From the NCBI GenBank assembly GCA_025056215.1, contig JANWWC010000001.1, positions 744,001-808,000 of the forward strand: 64,000 bases of DNA, in the 5' to 3' direction. Both the position numbers and the translations under genes were made by a program. The notes beneath the pieces are model-generated. The model searched no databases. It was given only the letters and a program-made list of their open reading frames with translations, and was not told the DNA's origin. Below, piece after piece: positions 35,720-39,397 of this stretch (position 1 is the first letter of the stretch; each line of letters starts with the position of its first letter). Source of the DNA: Cytophagales bacterium. GTDB taxonomy: Bacteria; Bacteroidota; Bacteroidia; Cytophagales; Flammeovirgaceae.

Positions 35720-37396
35720 TCATTGAAGAGCTTTATATTTAATTCTTTTAGGTATTAGTTCTCCGAGTTCTTCTCTTCGCTTGGCTTCATAATCTGAGTA
35801 GTTTCCTTCGAACCAACGAACTTTTGAGTCTCCTTCAAAAGCAAGAATGTGGGTAGCAACCCTATCCAAAAACCAACGGTCATGGCTAATAATTACAGCA
35901 CAGCCTGCAAAATTTTCTAATGCTTCCTCTAACGCGCGCAATGTATTAACATCCAAATCGTTTGTAGGCTCATCTAACAACAACACATTTGCTCCTTGTT
36001 TAAGAGTCATTGCTAAATGGACGCGGTTTCTTTCGCCACCTGAAAGATTTCTTACTTTTTTATTTTGGTCAGCACCCGAAAAGTTAAATTTACTGACGTA
36101 AGCGCGAGAATTCACTTCTCTTCCTCCAATTTTAATGGTTTCTTCTCCTCCTGAAATAACCTCCCAAACTGTCTTATCAGGGTCTAAATTGTCGTGTTCC
36201 TGATCGACATAAGCAATCTGAACAGAAGGTCCGATCTCTATAGTTCCTTTATCAGGTTTGAGCTGTCCAGTAATAAGTTTAAACAAAGTAGTTTTGCCAG
36301 CGCCATTAGGTCCGATGACACCCACAATACCAGCAGGAGGCAGATTAAAATCCAGATTTTCGTACAGAAGCTTATTTCCAAAAGCTTTCGAAACCCCTTT
36401 AGCGACAATCACTTTGTCTCCCAAACGAGGTCCTGGAGGAATAAAAAGTTCTAATTTCGCTTCTTTTTCTTTGACTTCTTCAGATAATAATTTCTCATAT
36501 GCCGATAAACGCGCTTTTGACTTGGCTTGTCGAGCTTTTGGGGACATTCGAACCCATTCTAACTCTCTCTCTAAAGCTTTTTGACGTTTAGATTCAGTTT
36601 TCTCTTCAATCTCTAAACGTTTGCGCTTTTGTTCTAACCAAGAAGAATAATTTCCTTTCCAAGGAATTCCCTCGCCCCTATCGAGTTCTAATATCCAGCC
36701 AGCGACATTATCCAAAAAATACCGGTCGTGAGTAACTGCAATTACTGTTCCTTTGTATTTTTGGAGATGCTGCTCAAGCCATTCCACTGATTCTGCATCT
36801 AAATGGTTGGTTGGTTCATCGAGCAACAACACATCAGGCTCTTGTAGAAGCAAGCGACACAAGGCCACTCGGCGCTTTTCTCCTCCTGAACAATGAGCAA
36901 TTAACTGATCTTCAGGCGGACACCGCAATGCGTCCATCGCGCGTTCCAGTCTGTGATCTAAATCCCATGCCCCTAAACGGTCTAATTTTTCTTGTACTTC
37001 TCCTTGTCGAGCAATAAGCGACTCCATTTTTTCAGGGTCGTTTATCACATCTTCATCAGCAAATCGCGCATTGATTTGATCAAACTCTTTAAGAAGACAA
37101 GCAATTTCATGAACTCCCTCCATCACTACTTCTTTAACTGTTTTAGAAGGATCGAGTTGAGGTTCTTGCTCCAAATATCCGACAGAATAGCCTGGCGAAA
37201 ATACTACTTCTCCCTGATACGATTTATCAATCCCTGCTATAATGCGCAATAAAGTAGATTTCCCTGAGCCATTCAGACCTATGACACCTATTTTAGCTCC
37301 GTAAAAAAATGATAAATAAATATCCTTTAATATCTGACGCTGAGGCGGTACGATTTTACTCACCTTTTGCATCGAAAAAATAATGGTTTCACTCAT
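35720..37396 (-). CDS. ettA: Energy-dependent translational throttle protein EttA (ABC-F)
   Basis: 558 residues; a soluble ABC-F ATPase that binds the ribosomal E site and gates translation by ATP level. Two ABC domains: the first has GLNGSGKST near 40, signature CSGGEKRR and LLLDEPTNHLD near 200; the second has GPNGAGKTT near 359, LSGGERNR and LLLDEPTNDLD near 477. The arm and P-site tRNA-interaction linker (about 250-320) are present. Length matches EttA rather than Uup. It is divergent from mraZ across a 379-base gap. Confidence 0.94.
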   Translation of the reverse strand: MSETIIFSMQKVSKIVPPQRQILKDIYLSFFYGAKIGVIGLNGSGKSTLLRIIAGIDKSYQGEVVFSPGYSVGYLEQEPQLDPSKTVKEVVMEGVHEIACLLKEFDQINARFADEDVINDPEKMESLIARQGEVQEKLDRLGAWDLDHRLERAMDALRCPPEDQLIAHCSGGEKRRVALCRLLLQEPDVLLLDEPTNHLDAESVEWLEQHLQKYKGTVIAVTHDRYFLDNVAGWILELDRGEGIPWKGNYSSWLEQKRKRLEIEEKTESKRQKALERELEWVRMSPKARQAKSKARLSAYEKLLSEEVKEKEAKLELFIPPGPRLGDKVIVAKGVSKAFGNKLLYENLDFNLPPAGIVGVIGPNGAGKTTLFKLITGQLKPDKGTIEIGPSVQIAYVDQEHDNLDPDKTVWEVISGGEETIKIGGREVNSRAYVSKFNFSGADQNKKVRNLSGGERNRVHLAMTLKQGANVLLLDEPTNDLDVNTLRALEEALENFAGCAVIISHDRWFLDRVATHILAFEGDSKVRWFEGNYSDYEAKRREELGELIPKRIKYKALQ

Positions 37397-37510
37397 ATAA
37401 TATTGTTGCAGTTATTCTTTCAATTATACGCACAAATTTAAAATACTAAAAATTTCGAATACAAAACAAACCTACTTTAAAAAAACCTGATAAGTACAAC
37501 TTTATAAAAA

Positions 37511-37545
37511 GGTAAAAAAGTGGAAAAAAATGGTAATTTGTGGTA
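37511..37545 (+). promoter_or_regulatory. MraZ-binding box array (10-bp period)
   Basis: GG at 37511 and TGG at 37521, 37531 and 37541, spaced exactly 10 bases apart with A/T-rich spacers. MraZ proteins bind such short G-rich direct repeats with one-helical-turn spacing upstream of their own gene. The array ends about 20 bases before the -7 element, a position suited to autorepression. Confidence 0.6.
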
Positions 37546-37565
37546 GGAATTTTAAAATTTCTTTT

Positions 37566-37573
37566 TATATTTG
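37566..37573 (+). promoter_or_regulatory. Candidate mraZ promoter -7 element
   Basis: TATATTTG matches TAnnTTTG exactly. The nearest TTTG upstream (37537-37540) is 25 bases away, longer than the usual 19-21, and overlaps the MraZ box array. The predicted start near 37580 implies a leader of about 195 bases. Confidence 0.45.
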
Positions 37574-37661
37574 TCGTATGAACTATGCAACTATTTATTG
37601 TACCAAACGCAAAACTCGAAAACTAAATTCATTAGCCATACATTAAACCAAATAATTCCTT

Positions 37662-37698
37662 AAAGAGAAGAAAGGAGCTTTGTTTCTTTCTTCTTTTT
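37662..37698 (+). terminator. Terminator-like hairpin inside the mraZ leader
   Basis: Perfect 9-bp arms AGAAGAAAG (37666-37674) and CTTTCTTCT (37686-37694), 11-base loop, followed by TTTT that can also pair with the preceding AAAG. It lies between the promoter and the mraZ ATG, so it would act as an attenuator if it forms during transcription; the stem is A/G-rich and only moderately stable. Confidence 0.4.
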
Positions 37699-37750
37699 AC
37701 TTATGAACCAACATTTAATTGAACTATGCAATAAATAAATAAATAAAATG

Positions 37751-37766
37751 TTCCACTTTTTTCCAC
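37751..37766 (-). promoter_or_regulatory. Second, inverted MraZ-type box pair at the mraZ start
   Basis: TTCCAC at 37751-37756 and again at 37761-37766, exactly 10 bases apart, are the reverse complement of the GTGGAA-type boxes upstream. They end about 10 bases before the ATG. Confidence 0.45.
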
Positions 37767-37775
37767 CTTAAAAAT

Positions 37776-38300
37776 ATGATAAAAGGTTTTTTTGGTGAAT
37801 ACGAATGCAAACTCGACGACAAAAATCGTCTAGTGCTTCCTGCTCGCCTAAAATCCGAAATTACTAGTGAAAACAATGAAGAAGAAATTACTCTTATCCT
37901 GTGTAAAGGTTTCGAACCATGTTTAAATCTTTATCTACCCTCTACATGGGAAAGTGTCATATTAGAAAAAATGCGCCAGCTAGACTTCTACCACTCAGAA
38001 CACAGGGCCTTACAACGAACCTTTTTAGGAGGAAGCACAGAGGTTAGCATGGATAAAACAGGCCGCATTTTATTGCCTCGACTTATGCAAAAATACGCTC
38101 TCCTTGAAAAAGACCTGCTTATTGTAGGAGTAGATCAACGCATTGAAATTTGGAATCCTGATAAATATCAAGAATACATTCTTACAGGAGAACAATTCTC
38201 ACAAGCAGCACACGAATACCTTACTAAGCCTACTATCCAACCTATTTCAAAAGTATTTAATATCAGTTTGCAAGAAAATCAGTCAAAGGCAGTAGATTAG
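37776..38300 (+). CDS. mraZ: Transcriptional regulator MraZ
   Basis: 174 residues, slightly longer than the usual 140-155. Two SpoVT/AbrB-like half-sites form the fold: FFGEYECKLDDKNRLVLPARLK near 4-25 and FLGGSTEVSMDKTGRILLPRLM near 84-105, both with the D-x-(K/T)-x-R-(L/I)-(V/L)-L-P signature. MraZ binds box repeats upstream of the division/cell-wall cluster and controls it. Here rsmH (mraW) and ftsL do not follow; the next gene is a SerC-like aminotransferase 8 bases downstream. Box arrays in the leader fit autoregulation. Confidence 0.93.
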   Translation: MIKGFFGEYECKLDDKNRLVLPARLKSEITSENNEEEITLILCKGFEPCLNLYLPSTWESVILEKMRQLDFYHSEHRALQRTFLGGSTEVSMDKTGRILLPRLMQKYALLEKDLLIVGVDQRIEIWNPDKYQEYILTGEQFSQAAHEYLTKPTIQPISKVFNISLQENQSKAVD

Positions 38301-38308
38301 CGCGCAAA

Positions 38309-39397
38309 TTGAAGCCTTATATGAAATACTATTACCTAACTCCTGGACCTAGCGAGCTTTATTTCACTGTTCCTCAGCATATTCAAACGGCTCTCAGTCA
38401 TGATATATGCTCTATTTCTCATCGAAGTGCAAAATTTCAGGAAATTTTCAAGGAAGCTGTTAACAATTTGAAAACTCTTTTAAATATTCCTGATGATTTT
38501 TACGTCGTATTTACGGGCTCAGCTAACGAAATATGGGAGAGAATCATTCAAAATTGCGTGAGAAATTACGTATTCCACTTAATAAACGGCTCTTTTTCAA
38601 AGCGATTTTACGAGACATCATTAGAACTCGGCAAAAAAGCGCTCTCTTCAGAAGTTCCCTTTGGAAAAGGATTTGAGGATGTTAGCTCTTTGAAAATTCC
38701 TGATGAAGTAGAAATGATTTGTATTACACATAACGAAACAAGTTCAGGAGTTAGCATGCCATTAGAAGATATTTACACCTTACGCAAGCACTACCCCGAA
38801 AAACTAATTGTAGTAGATGCAGTCTCTTCTCTTCCTTATCCTGATTTCGATTATCGTCTGATTGACTCAGTATTTTTTTCTGTACAAAAGGGTTTTGGGC
38901 TCCCTGCAGGTCTGGGCGTATGGATATTCAATCAACGATGTGTAGAAAAAGCTCTTGCCCTCCAAAAAGAAGGGATTTGTATTGGAACTTACCACAAAAT
39001 TCCTGAGTTGATTGAAAAAGCCTCAAAATATCAGACTCCTGAAACTCCTAATGTTCTTGGAATTTATTTGTTAGGAAAAGTTTGCAGCGATATGCTCTCT
39101 AAAGGAATTCAAACCATTCGCAAAGAAACTGCCTATAAAGCCACCTTGCTTTATCAACGATTGTCAGAGCATTCTTTCTTAAGACCTGCTGTTGAGAACC
39201 CTTCCCATCGCTCTTCCACTGTTATCGTAGCGCACATCACCGACGGTAGAACTTCAGAAGAAATTATCAACCTTTATAAACCTCACGGCTTCATCCTGGG
39301 GAAAGGATACGGAAAAGCAAAAGATACACAAATTCGCATCGCCAACTTCCCTACTTTTTCCAAAGAATTATTTGAAAAATTATCGGATATTTTATAA
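38309..39397 (+). CDS. Class V aminotransferase (SerC-like)
   Basis: 362 residues; PLP-dependent fold type I. The N-terminus YYLTPGPSELYF resembles phosphoserine aminotransferase, and the PLP lysine lies in FFSVQKGFGLPAGLG near 198. Asp of the VVDAVSS motif near 171 contacts the PLP ring nitrogen. It is likely phosphoserine:2-oxoglutarate aminotransferase (serC) or an alanine-glyoxylate-type enzyme; sequence alone does not decide. No serA neighbour is present. It probably shares the mraZ transcript, with a gap of 8 bases. Confidence 0.8.
   Translation: MKPYMKYYYLTPGPSELYFTVPQHIQTALSHDICSISHRSAKFQEIFKEAVNNLKTLLNIPDDFYVVFTGSANEIWERIIQNCVRNYVFHLINGSFSKRFYETSLELGKKALSSEVPFGKGFEDVSSLKIPDEVEMICITHNETSSGVSMPLEDIYTLRKHYPEKLIVVDAVSSLPYPDFDYRLIDSVFFSVQKGFGLPAGLGVWIFNQRCVEKALALQKEGICIGTYHKIPELIEKASKYQTPETPNVLGIYLLGKVCSDMLSKGIQTIRKETAYKATLLYQRLSEHSFLRPAVENPSHRSSTVIVAHITDGRTSEEIINLYKPHGFILGKGYGKAKDTQIRIANFPTFSKELFEKLSDIL

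Follow-up and report, generated by a model that had tools for sequence, protein, structure and literature searches.

The original study of MraZ, in Escherichia coli, is said to be that of Eraso et al. 2014. MraZ has been reported to be a repressor whose binding sites are repeats in the promoter region of its own gene (PMC8475190, PMC7761207). The MraZ boxes of mollicutes are described as direct repeats of AAAGTG[T/G], through which the protein controls its own gene cluster (PMC8475190). The mraZ operator of Burkholderia cenocepacia is reported to consist of four seven-nucleotide repeats with 3-nt spacers, located, 'as in E. coli', downstream of the -10 box (PMC7761207). In Rhodobacter sphaeroides, the 5′ leader of the dcw cluster is given as 268 nt, with a Rho-independent terminator that makes the sRNA UpsM (PMC5089854). 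Among titles and abstract beginnings in the open-access literature, no paper on facing or inverted MraZ arrays was found, which is not a claim that such arrays are unpublished.

The window, meaning the whole stretch of 64,000 nucleotides analysed here, carries the single MraZ locus of a 2.83-Mb genome that is 99.5% complete (Table 1). The mraZ product matches PF02381 above the curated cut-off and possesses two MraZ domains. The gene is located on contig C9 and precedes a class V aminotransferase gene (window 37776-39397). It is not adjacent to rsmH, as it would be in a dcw cluster; rsmH was found on contig C14 (G000:C14:112147-113034). No array was seen in front of rsmH, and in a matrix scan of that locus the top pair score was 7.7 bits; because no strong pair is present there, mraZ itself is the likely target. 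Related MraZ proteins were found on contigs labelled Bacteroidetes, Bacteroidia, Cyclobacteriaceae and Saprospirales. No MraZ match was obtained in any of the nine genomes of genus g3 (G003-G011), which belongs to the same family as the window organism.

Table 1. Features of the mraZ locus, with positions in the window.
Feature	Position	Strand	Remark
ABC-F-type ATPase gene	35720..37396	-	divergent, 5′ of mraZ
Main MraZ-type array, 10-bp period	37510..37546	+	three RTGG boxes and a degenerate fourth
TATATTTG, predicted -7 element of mraZ	37566..37573	+	22 nt past third box, TAnnTTTG match
Predicted mraZ leader, ~198 nt	37578..37775	+	start inferred from position of -7 box
12-bp direct repeat TGAACTATGCAA, copy 1	37579..37590	+	
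12-bp direct repeat TGAACTATGCAA, copy 2	37720..37731	+	
A/U-rich hairpin in leader	37661..37699	+	without T run after it
Inverted two-box MraZ-type array	37750..37769	-	CCAC at 37753 and 37763, 10 bp apart
mraZ	37776..38300	+	174 aa, two MraZ domains
Class V aminotransferase gene	38309..39397	+	directly downstream of mraZ

Similar to mollicutes, the mraZ promoter of the window contains direct repeats of the same core (PMC8475190). The preliminary description had reported TGG boxes with a 10-bp period on the plus strand, and these were recovered as RTGG boxes at 37520-37523 (GTGG), 37530-37533 (ATGG) and 37540-37543 (GTGG), spaced at exactly 10 bp; a degenerate further box (AGGT) precedes them at 37510. 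The array therefore has the direct repeats with GTG core, the 10-bp period and the place in the mraZ promoter by which MraZ boxes are recognised. The pattern RTGG-N6-RTGG-N6-RTGG occurs once in the 2.83-Mb genome, at this array, and its reversed control does not occur at all. GTG-containing repeats with a 10-bp period at the mraZ promoter are also reported for Burkholderia cenocepacia; however, the passages on that operator describe one array, downstream of the -10 box, whereas the main array in the order of the window organism is located upstream of the -7 element (PMC7761207). Compared with what is described for mollicutes, the window differs in possessing a second, inverted two-box array and in having mraZ apart from rsmH (PMC8475190).

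For comparison, mraZ genes were located by profile search in relatives that all lie outside the genus of the window organism, and their leaders were drawn mostly from the best-scoring MraZ matches. The order set comprises 98 leaders, 93 of them from 154 MraZ-bearing genomes and the others from five of six contigs (L008 gave no usable leader). The set for the rest of the class was taken from 70 of 229 MraZ-bearing genomes and comprises 69 leaders, after L151 was dropped as partial. In 95 of the 98 order-set leaders, TAnnTTTG lies at most 60 nt from a two-box array, and the spacing is 22 nt in 72/98, counts in which members of a single genus are not independent samples. Among the leaders from the remainder of the class, such a TAnnTTTG was present in just 11/69, one of them with 22 nt, which limits the 22-nt spacing rule to the order. 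Since the window has the geometry of these 72 leaders, its plus array is, judged by sequence motifs, the usual MraZ-type array of the order and sits, with respect to the promoter, where the array of its order relatives does. TAnnTTTG is described as the sigma-A -7 box, located at -12 to -5 (PMC9723704), and on this basis transcription is predicted to begin close to 37578. With such a start the third box adjoins the -33 region, which suggests repression of initiation.

The preliminary description had further reported inverted boxes of the same type, about 210 bases away and just before the ATG. TTCCAC is present at 37751-37756 and 37761-37766, with CCAC cores at 37753-37756 and 37763-37766; 209 bp separate the last plus box and the first inverted CCAC, and the second CCAC ends 9 bp 5′ of the ATG at 37776, so that both statements hold. 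The pair has the box sequence and the 10-bp period of a MraZ-box operator. It was scored with a matrix for which 65 distinct inverted pairs had been collected from relatives, excluding the window. As these training sequences were chosen for two RTGG cores, the flanks are the independent part of this test. At 22.7 bits the inverted pair is the top site of the 64-kb window, close to the median of the relatives (23.1 bits). The plus array scored 19.3 and 13.6 bits, and the best site outside both arrays 13.2 bits. With one mismatch allowed, the two-box pattern was found at 15 places genome-wide, versus 9 for the control, and two of the 15 are the arrays of the window; additional targets are not proposed from this count. 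A site at 802-831 of the window (9.6 bits with a three-box matrix) overlaps the start of an ORF and was taken as chance.

In 62 of 163 mraZ leaders of Bacteroidia, the main array is preceded by an inverted two-box array with 10-bp period, namely in 38/95 of the order set and 24/68 of the rest of the class. These spacing counts required at least 600 bp upstream of the gene, which 95 of 98 and 68 of 69 leaders offered, and refer to the region from -600 to -130. Other periods of the inverted RTGG pair occurred in 0-10 of the 95 leaders (periods 4 to 25) and in 1-6 of the 68 leaders (periods 5 to 21). On the plus strand, the RTGG pair with period 10 was present in 6/95 and 2/68 leaders. Sites of at least 14 bits were found on the minus strand in 61/163 leaders and on the plus strand in 6/163, but the spacing count is the cleaner control, because these same minus-strand pairs had served to train the matrix. 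By a hand count, the pair is present in six families within the order and in 16 more elsewhere in the class, and it was seen upstream in four of the five usable same-family leaders (L009-L012, not L014; L013 is incomplete). In ten leaders of family f13 the pair forms a conserved island in diverged DNA, and five leaders of f39 and three of f33 look similar. Both arrays, their spacing, the promoter motif and this comparative pattern are shown directly by the sequences. In L010, a dense row of inverted GTGG boxes, with three period-10 pairs, is located about 330-460 bp before mraZ.

The upstream gene is divergent in 37, co-oriented in 23 and missing in one of the leaders with the pair, and divergent in 70, co-oriented in 27 and missing in four of those without it (162 leaders in total). 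A divergent gene is therefore not required, and the upstream inverted pair is thus probably a second operator of mraZ. An assignment of the pair to divergent promoters was rejected as a general account, since the pair does not follow upstream-gene orientation. It is possible for part of family f13, where the divergent gene starts beside the pair (L042, L052, L062, L082, L097 and kin). A minus-strand -7 element was detected within 70 nt past the pair in 14/61 relatives, compared with 11% at control positions, so some pairs may also serve a divergent promoter.

The position of the pair in the window is a different matter. Relatives carry the pair on the upstream side of the main array, with the two arrays pointing apart, whereas in the window it lies downstream of the promoter and the arrays face each other. 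The region from -600 to -130 of the window contains no inverted pair, its top minus-strand score being -4.6. The preliminary description had named beforehand a lack of conservation of the start-codon pair as refuting, and a minus-strand period-10 pair was indeed found in -130..0 in 0/95 and 0/68 leaders of relatives. Pairs at the start codon (-32 to +14) were not enriched either, with period 10 in 2/167 leaders and other spacings in 0-3/167. Between the main array and +60 of the gene, 160 leaders including the window gave more than 10 bits in two cases, with 22.7 bits in the window and 15.2 bits in L132, whose pair straddles its own start codon. Of the second layer of autorepression proposed at the start codon, the position is therefore not conserved, while the inverted companion array that recurs at Bacteroidia mraZ promoters makes two-site autorepression plausible.

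We regard it as somewhat probable that the two arrays of the window form a two-operator autorepression module for mraZ, in which two bound sites act together by bridging and/or by halting polymerase. MraZ would bind the three-box array at the promoter, where the third box abuts the -33 region, and initiation would be blocked. It would also bind the inverted two-box site just 5′ of the start codon. Both bound sites would most likely cooperate, by bridging about 209 bp and/or by arresting polymerase after its escape. In this reading, the pair of the window would do on the transcribed side what the inverted pair of relatives does upstream. We infer MraZ occupancy, and with it repression, bridging or roadblock at these arrays, from their sequence and arrangement. 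Two-operator repression by DNA looping is known from lac and gal. The proposed layout resembles these in its promoter-proximal and remote operator for one repressor, but looping by MraZ was not reported in the MraZ literature surveyed. A rigid loop is disfavoured, because the gap between the arrays of relatives ranges from 60 to 507 bp without clear helical phase. For 60 leaders, the resultants were 0.11, 0.24 and 0.34 at 10, 10.5 and 11 bp, giving no clear sign of phase, and with one leader per genus they were 0.09, 0.16 and 0.29, the last of which was reached by 4% of random sets.

More tentatively, and with rather less confidence, MraZ rings of Bacteroidia may commonly bridge two oppositely oriented arrays, orientation and the 10-bp period outweighing the side of the promoter. 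The second array of the window could then lie at the start codon instead of upstream, with a distance between arrays still near that of two same-family relatives. Measured from centre to centre, this distance is 228 bp in the window, and 225, 222 and 262 bp in L009, L011 and L010, respectively. If two-operator autorepression is true, the recurrent inverted second array (62/163 leaders) would mean that MraZ, a ring-shaped repressor, operates through two sites at a single promoter. It would raise the concrete question of whether MraZ bridges the arrays. The window would add a natural experiment, with the second array on the transcribed rather than the upstream side.

The inverted pair could instead bind MraZ and act alone, as a roadblock or as a block of the start codon at the DNA level, without contact to the main array. 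Counted from the predicted start, the pair falls at about 176-189 nt and hence inside the transcript, and the absence of a helical phase preference between the arrays of relatives agrees with such independent action. A pair upstream of the promoter, as relatives have it, cannot however be a roadblock to mraZ, which disfavours the roadblock as a general role; we consider this reading unlikely.

The predicted leader itself is unusual. The stretch after the -7 element is 202 nt long in the window, versus a median of 35 nt in the order set, where L061 and L063 (208 and 321 nt) are the only other leaders above 100 nt. Both of these belong to genus g47 of family f4. The two copies of TGAACTATGCAA lie 141 bp apart from start to start, and a repeat length of 12 was reached in 18/2000 shuffles. 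Together with the A/U-rich hairpin, this direct repeat hints that the leader was expanded, perhaps through insertion; subtraction of 141 bp leaves 61 nt, inside the usual range. The leader as a repeated element was rejected, since it is present in single copy in the genome and the next match has 19 bases, and so was a known RNA family, as the two matches obtained stayed far under the gathering score. Similar to Rhodobacter sphaeroides, the window has a hairpin in a mraZ leader of unusual length (268 nt there versus about 198 nt predicted here), but the scan detected no terminator-like site in the mraZ leader of the window, in contrast to the Rho-independent terminator described there (PMC5089854). 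The inverted pair might be a neutral relict, a second array displaced by rearrangement or expansion of the leader and no longer important. The direct repeat and the long leader suggest such a rearrangement, and the position of the pair is not common to relatives. Nevertheless, a score at the median of relatives is unexpected for a decaying relict, and we hold this to be improbable.

That the inverted pair serves as operator for an antisense promoter firing into the leader, towards the ABC-F gene, is very unlikely. The orientation of the boxes fits, as do the minus-strand -7 elements that follow some pairs of relatives. The sole minus-strand TAnnTTTG motifs between the two genes, at 37440 and 37474, lie however at least about 280 bp from the pair and near the ABC-F start, and could be promoter elements of the ABC-F gene itself. 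An equally slight chance is given to coincidence, or to a C/U-rich RNA element around the start codon unrelated to MraZ: a minus-strand RTGG-N6-RTGG occurred in 22/5000 dinucleotide shuffles of 37550-37775 and the predicted fold pairs the inverted-pair stretch with the first codons, but the pair has the top matrix score of the window, a score of 22.7 bits was not attained at any of 4 million positions of a first-order Markov sequence, and the exact pattern TTCCACNNNNTTCCAC was found at one place in the genome (with one mismatch at 12 places versus 11 in the control, that is at control level).

A further motif in the leaders of relatives is TTATCCACA, which we take to be the DnaA-box consensus. 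It was found within 600 bp upstream of mraZ on the plus strand in 28/167 leaders and on the minus strand in 22/167, compared with 0-3 for four 9-mer controls; within 600 bp of the mraZ of the window there is none. The motif may link replication initiation to the control of mraZ. Because CCAC is also an inverted MraZ-like core, the DnaA-box and MraZ-box readings of it are not separated. It lies just upstream of the main array in, for example, L042, L052, L062 and L081, and 19 of the 31 plus-strand copies directly abut a MraZ box. In ten leaders of family f13, the TTATCCACA block is nearly invariant.
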